This document shows positions 53,426-62,642 of a stretch of 64,000 nt of DNA, piece after piece. This DNA is from Bryobacteraceae bacterium (lineage in GTDB: Bacteria > Acidobacteriota > Terriglobia > Bryobacterales > Bryobacteraceae), in contig JASHNT010000107.1 in the NCBI GenBank assembly GCA_030041495.1, positions 1-64,000 on the forward strand, written 5' to 3'. Position numbers and translations under genes: made by a program. The stretch's first letter is position 1. Every line of letters begins with the position of its first letter. Under the pieces are notes generated by a model, which worked only from the letters and a program-made list of their open reading frames with translations, searched no databases and was not told the DNA's origin.

Positions 53426-54343
53426 ATGAATCGTAATGGGATTGTGTGTGCATTGGCGGCCGTAGGCGCTTTTGCGGTTATCGCAGTCACCGCGCGTGGT
53501 CAAGCTCAAACCGATTACAGCAAGGTCCAAATCAAGACCACCAAGCTCAGCGGCAACTTCTATACTCTCGAAGGCTCGGGCGGCACCATCGGCGCGCTCG
53601 TGGGGCCCGACGGAGTCTTCATGGTGGATGGCGAATTCGCTCCCCTCACGGAAAAGATCCTGGCCGCGATCCGGCAGATCTCCAATACTCCGCCGCGCTT
53701 CATGATCAACACTCACGTCCACGGTGATCACACCGGCGGCAACGCGAATTTCGCCAAGGCGGGCGTGACCATCCTGGCGCGGCCTGAGCTGCGCGAGCGC
53801 CTCATGCATCCGGCGCCGGGAGCCAACGGCGCTCCCGGGACTCCGGCGCCCGCCGCCGCTCTGCCCGTCATCACCTATGACGCGCCCATCGCCTTCCACA
53901 TGAACGGCGAGGAAATCGACGCCATCCCCGTTCCGCGCGCCCACACCGACGGCGACACCATGGTCCACTTCGTCAATGCCGACGTGATCATGACCGGCGA
54001 TTTCTACCGCTCGATCCAATATCCGAATATCGACCGCACTAATGGCGGCTCGCTCAAAGGAATGCTGGCCGGCTTGATTGAAGTGATCGCGATGGCCGGC
54101 CCTAACACCAAGATCGTTCCTGGCCACGGCCCGGTGGTCGACCGTAACGCAGTGGCCGCGCATCGTGACATGATTCTGGTGCTGCGCGATCGCGTCGCCG
54201 AGCAGATCAAGCAAGGTAAGACGCAGGAGCAGGTAATCGCTGCCAAGCTGACTTCGGATTACGATTCCAAAGTCGCCGAGGCCGGCACCACCGGGGATCG
54301 CTTCATCGGGCAGCTTTATCAGGAGCTGAAAGCTGCTCAGTAA
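53426..54343 (+). CDS. Exported metallo-beta-lactamase-fold hydrolase
   Basis: 305 residues, signal peptide 1-26 (ending ARGQAQ). The metal motif is HVHGDH (97-102). Further ligands are suggested by the His in RAHTDGDTMVHF, the Asp in MTGDFY and the His in PGHGP. The long Pro/Ala loop (PGANGAPGTPAPAAA) before the fourth motif is typical of exported quinoprotein-relay/SoxH-like or B3-like members. Hydrolysis of esters, lactams or phosphates cannot be told apart. It is not obviously linked to the cluster that follows on the other strand. Confidence 0.83.
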   Translation: MNRNGIVCALAAVGAFAVIAVTARGQAQTDYSKVQIKTTKLSGNFYTLEGSGGTIGALVGPDGVFMVDGEFAPLTEKILAAIRQISNTPPRFMINTHVHGDHTGGNANFAKAGVTILARPELRERLMHPAPGANGAPGTPAPAAALPVITYDAPIAFHMNGEEIDAIPVPRAHTDGDTMVHFVNADVIMTGDFYRSIQYPNIDRTNGGSLKGMLAGLIEVIAMAGPNTKIVPGHGPVVDRNAVAAHRDMILVLRDRVAEQIKQGKTQEQVIAAKLTSDYDSKVAEAGTTGDRFIGQLYQELKAAQ

Positions 54344-54346
54344 GCC

Positions 54347-55600
54347 CTAACGCGGATCCGTGATTCTTCCGGCTAGCACCGAAGCGGCCACGGTGTCCGC
54401 CGACGCCAGATACACGCGCGCCTTGGGGTGCCCATTGCGTCCCGGAAAGTTGCGAGCCTGATTCGAGATCATGGCCTGCTCCTCGCTCATCGCGCCCATG
54501 TTGACGGCCTGATTGGAGCCAGCGCTGGGCGGGAAAAGGATCGCTCCGGCTTCAATCAGCGCTTCCACCAACCCCTCGCGCAAAGCCGCCAGCAAAATGC
54601 CGCGCGTGGCCGGCACAATCTGCAGCCGAACGCTGGGATGGACTTTCTTCCCGCGCAGCCGCGCCGCGGCGGTGCGGATGTCGCACAAACGTCCGCCGGT
54701 GCTCCCGCCGATTTCGGCCAACTGAATCTCGATTCCGGCTGCTTCACCAATGGGTCTCACGTTGCCGATGGTCGGAGGGCAGGCGACTTGCGGCTCGAGC
54801 TTGCTGACGTCGATATCGGCCACGCGCTCGTATTTGACGCCCACGTCGTTGGTGAACATCTCAAAGTCGCGCGTGCCGGCGTGCGCCAGCGCAAACTCGC
54901 GAGTCTTCTCGTCTGGATTGATGAAGCCGGCTTTCGCGCCCAGGTCGATCGCCATCAACGGAAACAGCAAACGGTCCTCCATCGAGAGGTCCCCGATGAA
55001 CGGTCCGGCGTATTCGACGGCTTGGTACACCGCGCCGTCCTCGCCGAGAAAGCCTTCCAGATACTGCGCGACATCCCGGGGCGTGACGCCGCACTGCAGT
55101 TCGCCGTGCAAGTGAATTTGAACTGTCTGCGGAACCTTGAACCAGCACTTGCCGTGCGCGTATCCCAGCGCCGCCATCGAATTGTTGCCCACGCCCGTCG
55201 AGAAGACTCCCAGCGCTCCGTAAACGGTCGTGTGGGAATCGCATCCGATGACGACCCGACCCGGAGCCCACAGGCGGTTTTCGATGATCACGTGGTGCAA
55301 GCTGCCGGATCCGGAATCAAACACATTTCTGATTCCGTGTTTCGCGGCAAACCCGCGGGCTTCCGTCAGCACTTCCGCGTCCCGTTGCGACGGAGGTGAA
55401 AAGGTGTGATCGAAAACGAAGGCGATGCGATCCGGATCGAAAATTTTTCCTCCGCCCATCTCCTGCTCAAAAACCTTCGCCACCAGATTCGAGCTCAAGT
55501 CGTGCAGAACCATCCGGTCGACGTTGGCGATCACGACATCGCCCGGCTCGACTTGTTTCCTGCCGCTGGCGTTGGCGAGGATTTTTTCGATCATGTTCAT
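54347..55600 (-). CDS. LeuC-like aconitase-superfamily large subunit lacking all three Fe-S cysteines
   Basis: 417 residues from ATG 55600, which overlaps the upstream stop (ATGA). It has the full three-domain LeuC fold, with GCDSHTTVYGALGVFSTGVGN, VEYAGPFIGDLSMEDRLLFPLMAIDLGAKAGFI and QVACPPTIGNV. The cluster-binding motifs are lost: GSC-T-N-G-R is IGGSTGGR (Ser300), and GCGAC is PSAGSN (Ala360, Asn363). The nearby intact paralogue (60891-62147) keeps Cys at all three positions. So this protein cannot hold a normal [4Fe-4S] cluster. It is the last gene of the operon and presumably pairs with the LeuD-like protein. Function unknown. Confidence 0.8.
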   Translation of the reverse strand: MNMIEKILANASGRKQVEPGDVVIANVDRMVLHDLSSNLVAKVFEQEMGGGKIFDPDRIAFVFDHTFSPPSQRDAEVLTEARGFAAKHGIRNVFDSGSGSLHHVIIENRLWAPGRVVIGCDSHTTVYGALGVFSTGVGNNSMAALGYAHGKCWFKVPQTVQIHLHGELQCGVTPRDVAQYLEGFLGEDGAVYQAVEYAGPFIGDLSMEDRLLFPLMAIDLGAKAGFINPDEKTREFALAHAGTRDFEMFTNDVGVKYERVADIDVSKLEPQVACPPTIGNVRPIGEAAGIEIQLAEIGGSTGGRLCDIRTAAARLRGKKVHPSVRLQIVPATRGILLAALREGLVEALIEAGAILFPPSAGSNQAVNMGAMSEEQAMISNQARNFPGRNGHPKARVYLASADTVAASVLAGRITDPR

Positions 55601-56433
55601 AGCAGGCTGCTTCCCGAACACGTGTCGCCGTAATATAAACCACGATGTTCCACGTGCAACGCGTAGATCGTGCCGGTTCCAGCTTCGTACGGCTGCGGAC
55701 CGGCGAGATTTTCGCGGAAGCCGCCGCCGTTTGTAACCGCGGCTTCAAAACGTTCGCGCAACTCGGCGATCTCCTCCGCTGGCCCGTGCGCCCGCGTCAC
55801 TTTCACCCAGTTCCCGCAGTACTCAAGCGCGAGCCCAACCGAATACGCGCGGTCCTCGCGGTGCTGGACGCGCAGGATTAGATCTTCCGCGCCGGCTCGT
55901 CGCAGCTTCCGTTCCAGATCACCGATTGCATCTGTCAACTCCACGCTTCGGGCCAATGCGAGCGCTTTGCGGCGCATCGCCAATTCAGCTTCATCCGGTT
56001 CGATGATTCCCGCCGAGGGAACGTCCACGATTTCGAGCCCGGGCAATCCGGAATAAATTTCGACCGGCAGCTTCGGCAAGTCTAGGACGCCGAGCTTCGA
56101 CCAACCGCGCTCCGCGCACAATTGTTCGAGCGAAGCCGTCAGCTTTGACGCCGGCCGGATGTCTTCCAAAATCGTCACCGACTTGATCCACGGATACACG
56201 CGCGGCGAAAGACCGCACAGCAGGACGGGCACGCCTTCGTGCGGAATCGCAATCAGAGACCGATTCCAGTACGGCATGAAGTTGGTCAGGAAGCGGCCCT
56301 GGTTGGATCGCCAGACGTCGGAATAAACCAGCAGTGCGGGGAGATCGCGCGCGGCCAGTGCTGCCTGCACGCGATCCAGGCGGAAGCGGAAAGCTTCGAG
56401 CGGCGTTTGACGCGCGATCAGTCCGCGCTTCAT
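55597..56433 (-). CDS. M24/creatinase-like protein without metal-site motifs
   Basis: 278 residues. The first 130 resemble a creatinase/prolidase N-terminal domain (RLDRVQAALAARDLPALLVYSDVWRSNQGRFLTNFMPYWNRS). The remainder resembles part of a pita-bread fold (LAMRRKALALARSVELTDAIGDLERKLRRAGAEDLIL) but has none of the D-D-H-E-E metal ligands and is shorter than complete M24 enzymes (about 350-400 residues). The start ATG overlaps the upstream M24 stop (ATGA). It may form a hetero-oligomer with that protein. Assignment to the family is moderate. Confidence 0.6.
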   Translation of the reverse strand: MKRGLIARQTPLEAFRFRLDRVQAALAARDLPALLVYSDVWRSNQGRFLTNFMPYWNRSLIAIPHEGVPVLLCGLSPRVYPWIKSVTILEDIRPASKLTASLEQLCAERGWSKLGVLDLPKLPVEIYSGLPGLEIVDVPSAGIIEPDEAELAMRRKALALARSVELTDAIGDLERKLRRAGAEDLILRVQHREDRAYSVGLALEYCGNWVKVTRAHGPAEEIAELRERFEAAVTNGGGFRENLAGPQPYEAGTGTIYALHVEHRGLYYGDTCSGSSLL

Positions 56434-57473
56434 GCCACGTCCTTCACGAAGAGCTTTCGCTCGGTTTGCGTCAAGCGCTCATTGCCCGTCTTTGTAACCA
56501 GCATCGGATCGCCGAAAACCATGTAGCCGGCCAGCGGCAGATAGGTGTTGGGATGCGCGATGATGACCATGTTTTCCTTCAGCACGTAATCGACGTCTTC
56601 CAAGATGTGCGGCGTCTCATCCGGGAACAGGCCCAGGCAATGGCCGCGCACGCGAGTGTATTTCGAGCCGGTGTAATCGCCGTAGCTATACTTGCGAAAC
56701 ACGTCGTTCTGTGCGCGCGCCACGTCGGAAGCTTTGATTCCCGGCTTGATCAAATCCTGCGCGGCCTGTTGCGCCTCATGAAATATCGCGAAGGATTCCA
56801 GTTGGCCTGCCGAAGGCGGGCCTAGAACAACGGTCCGGCAGATCTGCGCGTAATAGCCGTTGACGCACGGAGTGAGCTCCGTGATGACCGAATCGCCCTT
56901 TTGAAGCTTGCGATCGGTCGGAGGCTTCATCCCGACCACTTCCGTACCGCCGGAAGCGATCAGCATGAAGTTGTCTTCCGCACCGTTAGATTTCAAGAAG
57001 CCTTCGACTTCGGCAACGAGCTCGTACTCGCGCATTCCCACCGCGGCTGTTTGCACGAAGAATTGGTAGCCGCGATCAGCCAGCGCCGCGGCCTCGCGAA
57101 GGAAACCGACCTCTTCCGCGGTCTTGACGCGTCGCAGTTCTTCTATATCGGCGGTCGCGGAAACGGGCGAGCCGGCAACGAAACGGTTCTCCATCAACTC
57201 GAGCCCCGCGATGGCCAAGGCTTTCGGAAACTCGCCGGTGAATTCGCGCGAGCCGGAAAGCAGATCACGGTCCCAGGGATCGGCGAAAAACACCGTGAGA
57301 TCCCCGGATCGTGTCAGATGTGCCCCCGCATAGGGGCCGCAATAATTCACATTCACAAGGCAGCGGAAGTAGTCTTTGCGCCAGCCGTGGCCGTACAGTA
57401 AAATCGAATCCCATCCGCGCTCGGCCATCAAGTCCATCAACTGGCGGCGGCGATGTTCATTGACTATGCTCAC
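56430..57473 (-). CDS. M24-family creatinase/prolidase-like hydrolase with altered metal site
   Basis: 347 residues from GTG 57473, which overlaps the upstream stop (GTGA). The creatinase-type N-domain (YGHGWRKDYFRCLVNVNYC) and pita-bread C-domain are recognisable. Comparing with the M24 ligand motifs: D-x-G becomes ITELTP, S-D-x-T-R-T becomes AQICRT (Asp to Gln), G-H-G becomes RGHCLGL (His kept), E-P-G becomes AHPNTY (Glu to His) and the last Glu becomes Lys (VTKTGN). So four of five ligands differ. Creatinase is a known metal-independent member. The substrate may be a small C-N compound. Confidence 0.7.
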   Translation of the reverse strand: MSIVNEHRRRQLMDLMAERGWDSILLYGHGWRKDYFRCLVNVNYCGPYAGAHLTRSGDLTVFFADPWDRDLLSGSREFTGEFPKALAIAGLELMENRFVAGSPVSATADIEELRRVKTAEEVGFLREAAALADRGYQFFVQTAAVGMREYELVAEVEGFLKSNGAEDNFMLIASGGTEVVGMKPPTDRKLQKGDSVITELTPCVNGYYAQICRTVVLGPPSAGQLESFAIFHEAQQAAQDLIKPGIKASDVARAQNDVFRKYSYGDYTGSKYTRVRGHCLGLFPDETPHILEDVDYVLKENMVIIAHPNTYLPLAGYMVFGDPMLVTKTGNERLTQTERKLFVKDVA

Positions 57474-58549
57474 GGCGACACCGACTCCAGGAACCACTCG
57501 GTCGGCAGTTCGCGGCCGAGTCCCATCGCGCGGGCACGTTTCACCACCGCGGCTCCGACGGCGGCGAACTGCGTTCCCGCGCCGGTGTTGTTATTGAAGC
57601 AGGTGATCTGATCGGCGCTTACGCGGCCTTTGGCTTTGCCCGCAACCAGATCTTGCAGCTCGCCGATGTCTTCCCAGCGCTTGATGCCCTTCTGCGCCAC
57701 TTCCCACACGTCGGGGGATTGATCGTTCCTGGCGACCTCTTTCGAGTGCACAAAGTAGATGTCGGCGCGGCGGATGCATTCATCGTCGATCTCGCGGCGC
57801 TTGTTGCTCGCGTCGGAGCCGCCGATCGAGGCCACATACATCCCCTTTTCGACCCAATGGCCGTCGAAGACCGGGTCCCAAGCGGCGGTGGCGGCTTGAA
57901 TGAAGTCGCTACTCACGGCGCACTCCCTCGGAGTGCCCACGGCCCGTACATTGTCCCGGCCGAGCTTGCGGCTCATCTCCTTGCAGAACATTTTGCAGTG
58001 TTCCTGATTCGGGCTGTAGACCTTGATCTCGTCGAATCGATACTGTGCGGCCAGAAACTCCAGATGCGCGCTGGCCTGCCATCCGCTGCCGAACAATCCC
58101 AGTGTGCGAGGCTTCTCTGGAGCCAGATACTTCGCCCCCACCGCGCTCATGGCGGCTACGCGGACTTTCTGGATCACTCCGTCCGGCATGATCGCGACTG
58201 GCTCGATTTTCTCGACATCGAAAAGAATCACCAGACCGCAATAAGTATTGCCCGTGGCCACCGGCAGAATCCGGCGGCGCTTAACGCCAGCAGTATAGGA
58301 GAATCCGGCCATGTCCGAAGTCAGGCGCAGAGCCCACATTCCGCAGTCGAGGCTCCCGCCCTCTTGCGTCTTCATGCGGTAGTGAAAGCCGGGGTGTTGT
58401 TTCGATTCCGCCGGCAAATAAACTTGCGAGCGAGGCCGGTTCAGAGCCTTCCCTTCGGCCAGCTCACGATAGATGCTCTCCGTCGCCGCGATGGCTTCCT
58501 GCGGCAGCAGGGCTTTCTCGACTTCTTCATTATTGAGCAGCAGAGTCAT
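57470..58549 (-). CDS. Ornithine cyclodeaminase / mu-crystallin family protein
   Basis: 359 residues. The family pattern is clear: N-terminal RPRSQVYLP, HYRMKTQEGG, then the Rossmann NAD(P)-binding region DGVIQKVRVAAMSAVGAKYLAPEKPRTLGLFGSGWQASAHLEFLAAQ, VKVYSPN-type strand and CAVSSDFIQAATAAWDPV. Members include ornithine cyclodeaminase, ketimine reductase, alanine dehydrogenase and EutC-type proteins. Both its ends overlap neighbours (ATGA, GTGA), so it is a core operon member. It may reduce or deaminate an amino-acid-like or cyclic imine substrate. Confidence 0.88.
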   Translation of the reverse strand: MTLLLNNEEVEKALLPQEAIAATESIYRELAEGKALNRPRSQVYLPAESKQHPGFHYRMKTQEGGSLDCGMWALRLTSDMAGFSYTAGVKRRRILPVATGNTYCGLVILFDVEKIEPVAIMPDGVIQKVRVAAMSAVGAKYLAPEKPRTLGLFGSGWQASAHLEFLAAQYRFDEIKVYSPNQEHCKMFCKEMSRKLGRDNVRAVGTPRECAVSSDFIQAATAAWDPVFDGHWVEKGMYVASIGGSDASNKRREIDDECIRRADIYFVHSKEVARNDQSPDVWEVAQKGIKRWEDIGELQDLVAGKAKGRVSADQITCFNNNTGAGTQFAAVGAAVVKRARAMGLGRELPTEWFLESVSP

Positions 58550-59058
58550 TGCCCGAGCCAGCTCCTGCCGGCTTCCGATTTCAGTAGCGGAATCAATCCA
58601 CCCGCGCGCAGCATGTCGAGCAGGATGCCTCCGGGCGGAGTTCCTTGAATCGACGCGCCGGTGGTAAGGTTCTCCACCAGCCCGCGCTCGACATCCACGC
58701 GCAGGCGGTGACCGGTCTCGACGAAATCATGGATGCCGCGGACTTCAAGAATCGGCAAGCCGATTTCCGGCCCGTTGCGGTAAAACGTGCGCGAAAAGAA
58801 TTCGGCCAGCACCGCACCAACTCCAGTGGCCTTGATCGCCTTGGGCGCGATAGCGCGACCGGAGGAGCATCCGAAGTTGCGCCCGGCTACGATGATGTCG
58901 CCTTTTTGTACGTTCTTCGGGAAGTCAGGATTGGCGTTTTCGAGAACGTGCTTGACCATCTCAGGCATGCCGCGCATCACCAGATGCGTGGGCGTGATCA
59001 TGTCGGTGGGGATATTATGACCGAACTTCCAGCAGTTGCCTTCCAGAATCAGATTCAC
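58546..59058 (-). CDS. LeuD-like aconitase-superfamily small subunit
   Basis: 170 residues from GTG 59058, chosen because the swivelling domain begins at once (LILEGNCWKFGHNIPTDMITP) and no later start keeps it. The MFS gene end overlaps by 44 nt. The signature is GRNFGCSSGRAIAPKAIKATGVGAVLAEFFSRTFYRNGPEIGLPI. The specificity loop (THLVM after the TDMITP segment) does not match the YLRT-type loop of isopropylmalate isomerases, so the substrate probably differs. Its LeuC-like partner is encoded five genes away at the operon end. Confidence 0.82.
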   Translation of the reverse strand: MNLILEGNCWKFGHNIPTDMITPTHLVMRGMPEMVKHVLENANPDFPKNVQKGDIIVAGRNFGCSSGRAIAPKAIKATGVGAVLAEFFSRTFYRNGPEIGLPILEVRGIHDFVETGHRLRVDVERGLVENLTTGASIQGTPPGGILLDMLRAGGLIPLLKSEAGRSWLGQ

Positions 59059-60238
59059 GGGTTTTGCGCCCCACGGCGAGGAACAGAGCGAATGCCAGAA
59101 CGCAGGATAGCAGGTCCACGGTGAACGCCGTCGAATAGCGATGAGTGGAATCGTAGATTGCGCCCGCCACCACGCCGCCGGAACTCGTGCCCAGTCCGAA
59201 GAACAGCATGAAGAGGCCGAGGATGGTGCCAACGCGCTCAGTTCCGAAATATTCAAACGCGATGATCGAAGGTGCGTTGAAGATGCCGCCGTAGCCGAGG
59301 CCGAAGACCGCCGCAGTGAAGTAGACGGCGGTTGACTTGGGATCGGCTGCGATCAAGCCAGCGCAGCCCAGGATGAGGCAAGAGGTCGCGAGCAGCATGG
59401 AGACGCGGGTTGAAAATCGATCTGCCGCTGCGCCGCCCATCAGTTTGCCGAACGCGCTTGCGCCGAGCAGAGTGCTCAAAGCCTGCGCGGCATCCGGAGG
59501 CTTCACGCCCTGCCCACGCAGATACAAGACCAGGTGCTCCTGGACGCCCATCAGGGTGTGCGCCGCGAAGAACAAGCTAACACCGAAGATCCAAAAGAGA
59601 GGGCTCTTGAGAACGCCGCCTGCGTCGGAGATCGAATGGCGGGCATGACTCGCAGCGGCGCGCGGAGCATCTCTTGGTGCTTGCGGAGCGAGCACCAGCG
59701 TTACAACCAATGGAATCGCCAGGAATGCGCTCAGCGTAAGGAATGCCTGCGAGTAGCCTTGCTGGGCAATCAATTTCGTGGCCAGCTTCGGAAAGATGTA
59801 GCCGCCGAGTCCGACGCCTGCGTTGATCACGCCGACGGCGAGCCCGCGCTGCTTGGTGAACCACGGAGCGATCAGCATCGATGCCGGCACCAATGATGCC
59901 GCGGCGATCCCGATTCCCAGCAGCGTGCAGAACGCATACCACTGGATCTCCGTTTGCGTGGTGGACATCAGAGCCATCGCCGCAGCGCAGGTGACGCATC
60001 CGCCCAGGATCACGGCCTTCGGAGAATACTTGTCAGCGAGCCAGCCGATTAGCGGCCCCAGTACTCCGATCAGTAGCAGGACGACCGATCCTCCGCCCGC
60101 TGCTGCGGCGTGCGACCATCCGAACTTTTTCGGGTCGGCAAAGACGGCGTAGAAGACGGGGAGCGAGAATCGCCCCGCGCAGAACGCCACTGCGAGCACG
60201 GTGAAGGAGACGAATAATCCTCTTGCGCGCGGAATCAC
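59015..60238 (-). CDS. MFS transporter (monocarboxylate/oxalate-type)
   Basis: 407 residues from GTG 60238, which overlaps the upstream stop (GTGA). Twelve membrane helices are visible, with the MFS loop motif GWLADKYSPKAVILGG between helices 2 and 3 and GGAAADRFSTRVSMLL between 8 and 9. Helix features such as FGLGYGGIFNAPSIIAFEYFG and GVINAGVGLGGYIFPKLATKLI resemble oxalate:formate/monocarboxylate transporters. It probably imports the operon's substrate, likely an organic anion. A 23-bp repeat covers its start region. Confidence 0.87.
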   Translation of the reverse strand: MIPRARGLFVSFTVLAVAFCAGRFSLPVFYAVFADPKKFGWSHAAAAGGGSVVLLLIGVLGPLIGWLADKYSPKAVILGGCVTCAAAMALMSTTQTEIQWYAFCTLLGIGIAAASLVPASMLIAPWFTKQRGLAVGVINAGVGLGGYIFPKLATKLIAQQGYSQAFLTLSAFLAIPLVVTLVLAPQAPRDAPRAAASHARHSISDAGGVLKSPLFWIFGVSLFFAAHTLMGVQEHLVLYLRGQGVKPPDAAQALSTLLGASAFGKLMGGAAADRFSTRVSMLLATSCLILGCAGLIAADPKSTAVYFTAAVFGLGYGGIFNAPSIIAFEYFGTERVGTILGLFMLFFGLGTSSGGVVAGAIYDSTHRYSTAFTVDLLSCVLAFALFLAVGRKTRESDSGRQLLEVRS

Positions 60239-60256
60239 TGCCGCGATTCTATCGCA
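60234..60256 (-). repeat. 23-bp promoter/start repeat, copy 1 (MFS gene)
   Basis: Reverse-strand TGCGATAGAATCGC-N-GCAGTGAT covers the extended -10 (TGCGATAGAAT), a 7-nt spacer and the GTG start at 60238. It differs from copy 2 (60804-60826) at one base only. It contains the imperfect palindrome GCGAT-TCT-ATCGC (60243-60255). It may act as promoter and operator. Confidence 0.6.
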
Positions 60257-60808
60257 CGCCAGTCTCGTGCTGCTCTGAGCCGAGCGAGGATCTCCTGCTT
60301 CTCCGATGCGAGAATGTCGCTGGTCTCCAGGTCGTACCAACGGGCGGTCAGATATTGGTCTTCAAGGCGGTAGAGGTCCTGGTCAACAAACGAGGAGCCG
60401 TTGCGGACGCCGAAGAGGATGTATCGGTGCATCCCATAATGAGCTTCGTCAGGCACCCACTCAAAATCTGCCGTAACAAAGATTTTGGTGTCTGAAATGG
60501 ACGGCTCATCCCAGAACTCATGCTGGCTTTGGTTCGAGATCGAGACCCGAGAACAGCCGCGCCGGCCGCCCCGGTGCGGTCTCCACAACGTCCGCGTCCG
60601 GATCCCCTCCAAACTTGTCCGCCATCGTGAAGCACTGCCGAGAAGTCCCTTCCAGGCACAGCGTCGCCGGGCCATGGGGCCGTAACCCAGCCGGATCATC
60701 AGTCCCGGGACTCACTACCGTCACATCGCGGCCCATGAACTTCAGAGGCTCTTGCGCGGCGAGGCCCACAGCTAGCACGGCGAACGCGACCAACGCTCTA
60801 GCGATCAC
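60235..60808 (-). pseudogene. Frameshifted small exported protein heading the operon
   Basis: From GTG 60808 the frame reads a signal peptide (IARALVAFAVLAVGLAAQ) and FMGRDVTVVSPGTDDPAGLRPHG...CFTMADKFGGDPDADVVETAPGRPARLFSG, then reaches a stop at 60518. Another frame continues with VSISNQSQHEFWDEPSISDTKIFVTADFEW...YLTARWYDLETSDILASEKQEILARL to a TGA at 60235, overlapping the MFS start. The two coherent halves indicate one gene with a frameshift or deletion near 60560. It could be a sequencing error, a real pseudogene or, less likely, programmed frameshifting. I do not know the family. Confidence 0.6.
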
Positions 60809-60826
60809 TGCGGCGATTCTATCGCA
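60804..60826 (-). repeat. 23-bp promoter/start repeat, copy 2 (operon head)
   Basis: Same sequence as 60234-60256 with one mismatch, placed identically over the GTG start at 60808: extended -10 TGCGATAGAAT, 7-nt spacer, GTG. The palindrome GCGATTCTATCGC is at 60813-60825. Confidence 0.6.
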
Positions 60827-60843
60827 GCCACACGTCCGGATGC

Positions 60844-60849
60844 TATACT
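60844..60849 (+). promoter_or_regulatory. -10-like hexamer of the divergent leuC/leuD pair
   Basis: TATACT (60844-60849) lies 41 nt before ATG 60891, within the 82-bp divergent region shared with the reverse operon. The repeat copy 2 is 18 bp away, so one regulator could control both directions. Confidence 0.4.
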
Positions 60850-60890
60850 CATCGTCGCGTCTTCTCAAAAAGCTGCCAAGTAGGTCCTCC

Positions 60891-62147
60891 ATGGGATTCA
60901 CCATCGCTGAAAAAATCCTCGCTGCCAAGTGCGGGAAGTCGTCTGTCACCCCGGGCGAGATTGTCGAGGCTTATCCCGATCTGGTGATGAGCCACACGGC
61001 GACGTGGCGCTCGGTGAGCGTGATGAATAAGGTTGGCGCAACGAAGTTGTACGATCCGGATCGGCTCGCCGTGGTGCTGGATCATATTGCTCCGGCGAAG
61101 TCGGAGAAGAACGCCTCGGATCATCAAGCCTGCCGGACGTTCGTGCGCAAATATGGCGTGCAGAAATTCTACGACGTCGACGCGGGAATCGCGCACCTGG
61201 TGCTGATGGAGCACGGGCATGTCGCGCCCGGCGACCTGATCGTCGGCACCGATTCGCACTGCACGATTTATGGCAGCTTGGGTGCACTCGGCACGGGCAT
61301 CGGATACACGGAAGTGACGTCGGTGTGGATCACCGGAAAGCTGTGGATGAAGGTTCCGGAGACGTTCAAGATTACGCTATCAGGCCAGCTTCGCCCAGGT
61401 GTTTATTCGAAGGACCTAATGCTGCATTTGATCGGCACGCTGGGGGCGGATGGGTGCAGCTACAAATCGGTGGAATTTTACGGTTCGGCTGCGGGGTTGA
61501 GCGTGTCGGAGCGGATGACCATGACCAATCTCGCAATGGAGATGGGCGTCAAGTGCGCATTCATTCCGCCGGATGCGAACACCGAGGAGTATCTGCGGGG
61601 CCGGCTCAAGGATGCCTCACGATACCAGCCGGTGTTTGCCGATGGGGACGCGGTTTACGAGCGCGAACTCGGCGTCGACTTGTCGACGCTCGAGCCAATG
61701 GTCGCGTGCCCGCACGAGGTGCAGAACACCAAGCCCATCGGACAAGTGGAGGGCACGCGCATCGATCAGGCGTTCCTTGGTTCGTGCGCAAATGCGAAAT
61801 ACGAAGATCTGGTGGTCGCCGCGCGGATTCTCAAAGGCCGGCGCGTTCATCCTAACGTGCGTTTCATCATCACTCCGGGATCGAAGGAGATCATGCTGGA
61901 GGCGGTGAAGACGGGAGTCGCGACGACGTTGCTGGAGGCCGGAGGGTTGTTCACGAATCCGGGCTGCGGAGCTTGCGCGGGTGATGGAGGAGTGATGGCC
62001 GATGGCGAGGTGTGCCTCTCCACGGCCAATCGCAATTTCCTCGGGAGGATGGGCTCGAGCAAAGCGGAGATTTATCTCTCCAGCCCGGCGACGCTGGCGG
62101 CGTCGGCGATCAAGGGCGCGATTGCTGATCCCAGGGAGTTTTTTTGA
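60891..62147 (+). CDS. LeuC-type aconitase-superfamily large subunit with intact Fe-S ligands
   Basis: 418 residues from ATG 60891. Substrate and cluster motifs are present: VGTDSHCTIYGSLGALGTGIGYTEV, AFLGSCANAKYEDL (Cys299) and NPGCGACAG (Cys359 and Cys362), then STANRNFLGRMGS. It hydrates/dehydrates a 2-hydroxy acid, as in isopropylmalate, homoaconitate or dimethylmalate dehydratases. No leuA or leuB is adjacent, so leucine synthesis is not shown by context. The small subunit starts 3 nt downstream. It is divergent from the operon that encodes a second, cluster-less LeuC. Confidence 0.9.
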   Translation: MGFTIAEKILAAKCGKSSVTPGEIVEAYPDLVMSHTATWRSVSVMNKVGATKLYDPDRLAVVLDHIAPAKSEKNASDHQACRTFVRKYGVQKFYDVDAGIAHLVLMEHGHVAPGDLIVGTDSHCTIYGSLGALGTGIGYTEVTSVWITGKLWMKVPETFKITLSGQLRPGVYSKDLMLHLIGTLGADGCSYKSVEFYGSAAGLSVSERMTMTNLAMEMGVKCAFIPPDANTEEYLRGRLKDASRYQPVFADGDAVYERELGVDLSTLEPMVACPHEVQNTKPIGQVEGTRIDQAFLGSCANAKYEDLVVAARILKGRRVHPNVRFIITPGSKEIMLEAVKTGVATTLLEAGGLFTNPGCGACAGDGGVMADGEVCLSTANRNFLGRMGSSKAEIYLSSPATLAASAIKGAIADPREFF

Positions 62148-62150
62148 GGC

Positions 62151-62642
62151 ATGGAAGCAAGCATTCACGGCCGCGCCTACAAATTCGGCGACAACATCAA
62201 CTCCGATATCATCATCCCCGGACGCTATTTGATTTACATCGATCAGCAAAAGCTAGCCGAGCATGCATTCGAGGTGCTCGGGCCGGAGTTTCCGGCCAAG
62301 CTGCGCGACTTTCAGATCCTAGTGGCCGGGCGCAACTTCGGATGCGGCAGCGCACGAGAGCAGGCGGCCACCGCGATTCAGGGATTGGGTATCAAGGCGG
62401 TGATCGCCTGTTCCTTTGCGCGCACGTTTTACCGCAACGCGATCAACGATGGTCTGCCGATTTTCGAATGCCCCGATTTGTACCCGGCCGTTGAAGAAGG
62501 CGACGAACTCACCATCGATCTGGCGGCCAGCGCGATTCTGCACAAGGGCAAGGCTTATGGCTTCCCGCAGTTGCCTGAGTCGGTTCGCAAAATTCTGGAG
62601 CTGGGCGGGCTGGCAGCGTACTTGAAAACCCAGCTCTCTTAA
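62151..62642 (+). CDS. LeuD-type aconitase-superfamily small subunit
   Basis: 163 residues, starting 3 nt after the large-subunit gene. The swivelling-domain signature is GRAYKFGDNINSDIIIPGRYL, then VAGRNFGCGSAREQAATAIQGLGIKAVIACSFARTFYRNAINDGLPIFEC, with the active-site Ser/Arg in GCGSAR. The substrate-recognition loop is YLIYID, not the usual YLRT, so the substrate could be homoaconitate, dimethylmalate or another malate derivative rather than isopropylmalate. It is convergent with the GT2 gene 7 nt away. Confidence 0.88.
   Translation: MEASIHGRAYKFGDNINSDIIIPGRYLIYIDQQKLAEHAFEVLGPEFPAKLRDFQILVAGRNFGCGSAREQAATAIQGLGIKAVIACSFARTFYRNAINDGLPIFECPDLYPAVEEGDELTIDLAASAILHKGKAYGFPQLPESVRKILELGGLAAYLKTQLS

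Follow-up and report, generated by a model that had tools for sequence, protein, structure and literature searches.

What chemistry is left to an aconitase-fold protein that has lost the ligands of its iron-sulphur (Fe-S) cluster, and what kind of pathway would make use of it? The question is raised by a stretch of 64,000 nucleotides (the window: positions 1 to 64,000 of contig JASHNT010000107.1, assembly GCA_030041495.1) from an acidobacterial metagenome-assembled genome (MAG) of 6.1 Mb (G000), a member of the Bryobacteraceae. A reverse-strand operon at 54347-60238, transcribed in the order MFS, LeuDx, OCD, M24a, M24b, LeuCx, ends here with the gene of a LeuC-like protein, LeuCx, that lacks the three Fe-S cysteines. 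LeuCx belongs to a well separated clade under purifying selection, and the same gene set recurs across six phyla, in a module that we tentatively read as catabolic. Its features, including a divergent LeuC2/LeuD2 pair beside the MFS end of the operon, are:

54347-55600, reverse strand: LeuCx, large subunit of the LeuC/homoaconitase type without the three Fe-S cysteines, 417 aa (Pfam Aconitase, 2.4e-65)
55597-56433, reverse strand: M24b, truncated protein of the prolidase/creatinase fold without metal ligands, 278 aa (profile and AlphaFold2/Foldseek)
56430-57473, reverse strand: M24a, full-length M24-fold protein (Pfam Peptidase_M24, 2e-34)
57470-58549, reverse strand: OCD, protein of the ornithine cyclodeaminase/mu-crystallin family resembling NAD(P)H imine reductases, 359 aa (Pfam OCD_Mu_crystall, 3e-39)
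58546-59058, reverse strand: LeuDx, LeuD-type small subunit with a remodelled catalytic loop (TIGR02087, 3.9e-42)
59015-60238, reverse strand: MFS transporter of the monocarboxylate/oxalate-formate type (Pfam MFS_1, 3e-47; NCBIfam L-lactate MFS, 5e-40, below cut-off)
60882-62147, forward strand: LeuC2, archaeal-type LeuC with all three Fe-S cysteines (Pfam/NCBIfam profiles and motif comparison)
62151-62642, forward strand: LeuD2, canonical-type LeuD (GCGSARE) and partner of LeuC2 (profiles and loop motif)

The gene calls bear out the content and order given by the original prediction, which had been made from the sequence alone, as well as its mostly ATGA/GTGA overlaps: between LeuDx and LeuCx every one of the four junctions is of this kind (58549, 57473, 56433 and 55600), and the MFS and LeuDx genes also overlap. 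Family assignments are backed by Pfam and NCBIfam for all operon proteins except M24b. Of the six or seven genes then proposed, the six listed above stand, the divergent LeuC2/LeuD2 pair has to be added, and the frameshifted "exported protein" has to be left out. The latter is a disrupted copy of a family of ca. 230-260 aa and lies outside the functional unit, because its relatives sit at other places in related genomes and are absent from the operon elsewhere.

At the sites where the neighbouring LeuC2 has LGSC and NPGCGAC, LeuCx has GGST and PPSAGSN. The cysteines that hold the [4Fe-4S] cluster in this family are those equivalent to Cys358, 421 and 424 of mitochondrial aconitase; all three are missing in each of the 34 readable LeuCx sequences, whereas the ordinary LeuC copies that cover these sites retain them, so that the loss first noticed in a single sequence is confirmed both against the neighbour and across the group. 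No position of LeuCx holds an invariant cysteine, and the replacements are themselves conserved motifs (GG[S/H]xGGR, P[P/A][S/G][A/T]G[S/A]NQ and RNFPGRNG). Invariant in the 31 sequences compared are D64-H65, H102, D121-S122-H123, D219, R383 and R388, the equivalents, as read from alignments with canonical LeuC rather than from a ligand-bound structure, of the Asp-His, His147, Asp165-Ser-His167, Arg447 and Arg452 of aconitase, with Asp219 at the position of a conserved Glu of ordinary LeuC. The ratio of nonsynonymous to synonymous substitution rates (dN/dS) against the nearest relative was 0.06 for LeuCx, 0.061 for OCD, 0.076 for LeuC2 and 0.08-0.14 for LeuDx, M24a and M24b; in other words, the five operon genes tested are under purifying selection (0.06-0.14). 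Since the losses are conserved and dN/dS is 0.06, they reflect neither decay nor sequencing errors, the latter having been a doubt raised at the outset. One LeuCx gene, that of a Treponema MAG (L057, G540:C132:17487-18737), contains a single in-frame TAG.

By sequence LeuCx is a member of the aconitase superfamily (NF001614, 424 bits against a cut-off of 385). Its AlphaFold2 model (predicted local distance difference test score, pLDDT, 90.4; predicted template modelling score 0.90) is nearest in the PDB to 4kp1 and 4kp2, the isopropylmalate isomerase and homoaconitase of M. jannaschii, with a template modelling (TM) score of ca. 0.9 (0.91 for 4kp1). With these archaeal-type large subunits of isopropylmalate/citramalate isomerase and homoaconitase (LeuC/HacA; MJ0499, MJ1003) it shares the fold, 34-38% identity, a separate LeuD subunit and the conserved D-H, H, D-S-H and two Arg; it differs from them in the three cysteines and in Asp219, and its small subunit differs in having SSGR for G-S-A/S-R-E. 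Automatic annotation of these genes has to be corrected: since they exceed a general LeuC/aconitase-family cut-off, they would receive the names isopropylmalate dehydratase or peptidase.

The remodelling of LeuDx had not been noted in the original prediction. Its catalytic loop reads GCSSGR against the canonical GCGSARE, and a loop FG[C/Q]SSGR is found in all the LeuD partners of LeuCx, whereas the LeuD proteins that accompany the Fe-S LeuC of the module carry GSARE or NSSRE. LeuDx scores above the cut-off of TIGR02087 (LeuD/DmdB) and keeps the equivalents of Ser642 and Arg644 within GCSSGR, yet it does not fit the canonical loop pattern G-x-G/N-S-A/S-R-E. It has thus co-diverged with LeuCx. 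In four gut and termite loci (L053, L054, L056 and L057) two tandem LeuDx genes follow LeuCx, together with a third LeuD of canonical type, a TRAP transporter and a PreA-like oxidoreductase.

The two M24-fold proteins lack most or all of their metal ligands, as had been predicted. Aligned to the P. furiosus prolidase 1pv9, M24a reads E, Q, H, H and G at the five ligand positions, which we take to be D, D, H, E and E in prolidase, so that one of five is kept; the residues at these positions are conserved in 22 homologues. M24b is ligand-free and has no Pfam match at all, but a profile built from its alignment matches the prolidase 9kw9 (hmmsearch, 3e-10), and its AlphaFold2 model (pLDDT 89.6) matches prolidase (2.5e-13) and creatinase (4e-9) in Foldseek, with a shortened C-terminal half. 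Its length varies from 240 to 357 aa across loci. One Deltaproteobacterial locus has a similar M24 pair ca. 10 kb from LeuCx. For OCD, the closest solved relative is the Delta1-pyrroline-2-carboxylate reductase 6t3e; it shares family and NAD(P) domain with that reductase, with BhcD and with EutC, and reaches none of the NCBIfam equivalog cut-offs.

When 84,980 species genomes were scanned with the LeuCx alignment, 40 loci emerged, and the search for cluster-less LeuC together with LeuD, OCD and M24 genes that the original prediction had proposed thus found them in other genomes, which removes the possibility that the gene order is unique to this one. In the tree, 34 LeuCx sequences form one clade with 100/100 support, separate from all ordinary LeuC, and a gap in profile scores divides the two (at least 691 bits for LeuCx and at most 372 bits for ordinary LeuC, in 12 genomes). 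The carriers belong to the Acidobacteriota, Pseudomonadota (gamma and beta), 'Deltaproteobacteria'/Myxococcota, Bacillota, Spirochaetota and Actinomycetota, and include as isolates Peristeroidobacter soli and three Pseudonocardia. Within each group they are rare: 9 of 151 related genomes (Bryobacteraceae/Terriglobia, counted by full-strength matches to M24b only), 4 of 249 Pseudonocardiaceae, and 1 of 250 and 1 of 300 genomes, respectively, in the family of the Lachnospiraceae locus and in one Betaproteobacterial order, both of the latter being the query genomes themselves. Searches of these last three groups added three loci, all from Pseudonocardiaceae. Such rarity is what an accessory, horizontally transferred module would show. 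Among the plasmids of PLSDB there was no LeuCx, the best matches being 39% identical and in the range of ordinary LeuC.

LeuC2/LeuD2 belong to the module, and the functional unit thus reaches 62642: of the 9 relatives with the operon 8 also have a LeuC2 orthologue (at least 75% identity), against 0 of the 142 relatives that lack the operon (Fisher p = 1.6e-12); the single carrier without one is a genome that is 82% complete. LeuC2 is neither the only leuC of its genome nor linked to leuB, and the housekeeping leuC is a separate bacterial-type gene of 475 aa that adjoins leuB. In other phyla LeuC2/LeuD2 likewise lie beside LeuCx/LeuDx, with a more distant Fe-S LeuC/LeuD in their place in gut bacteria, and where LeuC2 is missing from a locus contig ends may account for it. 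At two Betaproteobacterial loci LeuCx/LeuDx occur without LeuC2/LeuD2 within ca. 20 kb. These loci (L063 and L064), which have neither M24 nor OCD genes nearby, instead hold a cycloisomerase/adenylosuccinate-lyase-type protein, MmgE/PrpD, an enoyl-CoA hydratase and a CoA-transferase, and this arrangement is probably a second use of the LeuCx/LeuDx enzyme.

What changes from lineage to lineage is the surroundings of this core. MFS is linked in the Acidobacteriota loci; those of Lachnospiraceae and Spirochaetes have a TRAP transporter and a PreA-like oxidoreductase; Deltaproteobacteria and one Pseudonocardiaceae genome have NMT1-type receptors and UbiD decarboxylases; and Betaproteobacteria have TctC, a fumarase-type lyase, MmgE/PrpD, an enoyl-CoA hydratase and a CoA-transferase. 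An HpcH-type aldolase lies near four loci and LysR in the gammaproteobacterial ones. Because the core is constant while uptake and downstream genes are swapped, we infer catabolism of an external compound, and it seems to us plausible, although we stop just short of calling it probable, that the module is a horizontally spread gene set for the breakdown of a small organic anion taken up from outside, most likely a nitrogen-containing one. It is the OCD and M24 folds, and these only, that suggest the amino or imino character of the candidate substrate. The transporter would take up the anion; M24a and M24b, probably a heterodimer with its active site in M24a only, would cut a C-N bond without metal in the manner of creatinase or ectoine hydrolase; OCD would form or reduce an imine or amine; and LeuC2/LeuD2 might then subject the carboxylic-acid skeleton to an ordinary Fe-S hydro-lyase reaction. 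A skeleton of the same kind would be the target of LeuCx/LeuDx, which would work with no Lewis-acid cluster and rely on the acid-base residues that they retain (in LeuCx Asp-His, His, Asp-Ser-His and two Arg, in LeuDx Ser and Arg), in a double-bond or tautomer isomerisation or in the elimination of a better leaving group than hydroxide, e.g., an amine.

In published descriptions of the aconitase superfamily the Fe-S cluster acts as a Lewis acid; in aconitase itself the base is Ser642 of the small domain, and the cluster serves only as Lewis acid for the hydroxyl (PMC8184944). With the equivalents of that serine, of the arginines and of the D/H residues retained and the cluster lost, the simplest supposition is that LeuCx/LeuDx move a proton or eliminate a group that leaves more readily. 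There are precedents for parts of this scheme: in fungal lysine biosynthesis two aconitase-family enzymes divide a pathway's steps between them (PMC3556520), and AcnX can supply an imine to pyrroline-carboxylate reductase (PMC5144071). With slightly more reserve than for the catabolic role as such, we think it possible that LeuCx/LeuDx are a new class of metal-free aconitase-fold enzyme, a lyase or isomerase on an amino- or imino-carboxylate, in an undescribed catabolic pathway common to the six phyla that also employs a metal-free M24 heterodimer. The idea of organic-anion uptake followed by metal-independent conversion, already put forward for this locus, survives as far as the transporters, the cluster-free LeuCx/LeuDx and the M24 pair without metal site are concerned, but not as a description of the whole, as the module also encodes an Fe-S-competent LeuC/LeuD. 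The statement that no described pathway has this gene set also stands: neither it nor a Cys-less LeuC was found described in the open-licence PMC literature, the only literature covered, which is weak evidence of absence. A selected subfamily without cluster ligands but with acid-base residues would reveal which chemistry truly needs the cluster, and the module would point to a catabolic pathway of soil and gut bacteria that is as yet undescribed.

Several observations weigh against this proposal. No neighbouring gene at the loci examined pins down the substrate or product. The loci of Peristeroidobacter, Firmicutes, Spirochaetes and Betaproteobacteria have no OCD, and the Betaproteobacterial ones no M24 genes either, so that neither is essential to the LeuCx/LeuDx step. 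Accessory enzymes differ so strongly from lineage to lineage that the module may have several substrates, and LeuCx may have a metal site that is not made of cysteines.

There are other possible explanations. In one, LeuCx/LeuDx would be a non-catalytic paralogue of LeuC2/LeuD2, acting as scaffold or regulator, and M24b would stand in the same relation to M24a. In favour of this, LeuCx has none of the three cluster ligands, M24b is shortened and has no metal ligands, and elsewhere the M24 fold occurs in non-catalytic proteins such as Spt16, which M24b also matches. However, the pocket loops of LeuCx are better conserved (0.82-0.91) than the protein as a whole (mean 0.69), both subunits have diverged together, and two Betaproteobacterial loci hold LeuCx/LeuDx with no LeuC2/LeuD2 within ca. 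20 kb, so that we consider a loss of catalysis unlikely, if worth keeping in mind. In the other, LeuCx would still be a Lewis-acid hydro-lyase, with D64, H65, H102, D121, H123 or D219 binding a different metal (mononuclear Fe, Zn or Mg). These candidate residues are invariant, and the metal centre does vary in the superfamily, that of AcnX having been read first as mononuclear Fe and later as [2Fe-2S] (PMC5144071, PMC8184944). In ordinary aconitases, though, the same residues form hydrogen bonds around the open iron and hold no metal alone (PMC8184944), and the new motifs add no invariant extra ligand, the His at position 300 being confined to one subclade. We doubt this explanation too, as one with a limited chance of being right.

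That the module is biosynthetic, making a specialised metabolite or an amino acid, is in our opinion quite improbable. It would agree with the rare and patchy occurrence in some groups, such as the 4 of 249 Pseudonocardiaceae, and Fe-S LeuCD-type enzymes also act in biosynthetic chain elongation. Yet the loci have importer parts (TRAP, TctC and NMT1 types) with aldolase, CoA-transferase, UbiD and LysR neighbours, and the neighbour families examined include no recurrent synthase, ligase or acyltransferase. Secondary LeuCD copies also serve in catabolism. A close known system is DmdAB, the 2,3-dimethylmalate dehydratase that nicotinate fermentation uses, which is an Fe-S enzyme; TIGR02087, the LeuD/DmdB family, takes in LeuD2 as well as LeuDx, and none of the other genes of that fermentation was recognised at the module.

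A variant of ectoine degradation (DoeA/EutD, EutC) or of hydroxyproline degradation (AcnX) is very improbable, and we rejected both routes on profile scores and structure. M24a does match DoeA and OCD does match EutC by profile, but at 67.6 bits against a cut-off of 613 and at 94.2 bits against 471.65, respectively; to our knowledge, ectoine degradation has no LeuC/LeuD. Creatinase and the ectoine hydrolase DoeA/EutD share the M24 fold with M24a and M24b and hydrolyse C-N bonds of small molecules, and creatinase works without metal; unlike them, M24a is nearer to prolidases by profile, is paired with a truncated M24b and lies beside LeuC/LeuD genes. AcnX and pyrroline-carboxylate reductase are a described pair of aconitase-family enzyme and imine reductase, and AcnX resembles LeuCx in belonging to the aconitase superfamily and departing from the [4Fe-4S] rule (PMC5144071, PMC8184944). 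However, AcnX still binds an Fe-S cluster via three cysteines and has only 12-14% identity to LeuCx, which falls in Pfam Aconitase and not AcnX (TM 0.91 to 4kp1 and ca. 0.6 to AcnX). Two further candidates were set aside: iminodisuccinate-type degradation, for which the MmgE/PrpD and fumarase-type lyase neighbours of two Betaproteobacteria are unseen in most other lineages, and pyrimidine/nicotinate-type reduction, for which the PreA-like protein linked in gut bacteria is lineage-restricted. As to pseudogene decay or assembly errors, the adjacent frameshifted gene might have hinted at them, but we give them practically no credence, as the losses recur in 34 separately assembled sequences, some of them from isolates (Peristeroidobacter soli, Pseudonocardia spp.), and the dN/dS of LeuCx is low.

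Some minor observations concern the flanks of the loci. In four Acidobacteriota loci (L034-L037) a gene of the amidohydrolase-2 family lies immediately downstream of LeuCx (in L036 at 11278). In the window, the forward-strand gene at 53426-54343, convergent with leuCx, encodes a metallo-beta-lactamase-fold protein whose nearest profiles, below cut-off, are of the quinoprotein relay SoxH type; it is linked to the module only in the nearest relative (L019). At the other end, the frameshifted gene (60235-60949, reverse strand) is a copy of a Bryobacteraceae protein family with relatives on other contigs of related genomes, and most of it lies between two almost identical 23-bp direct repeats (60234-60256 and 60804-60826), which suggests a local insertion or duplication.

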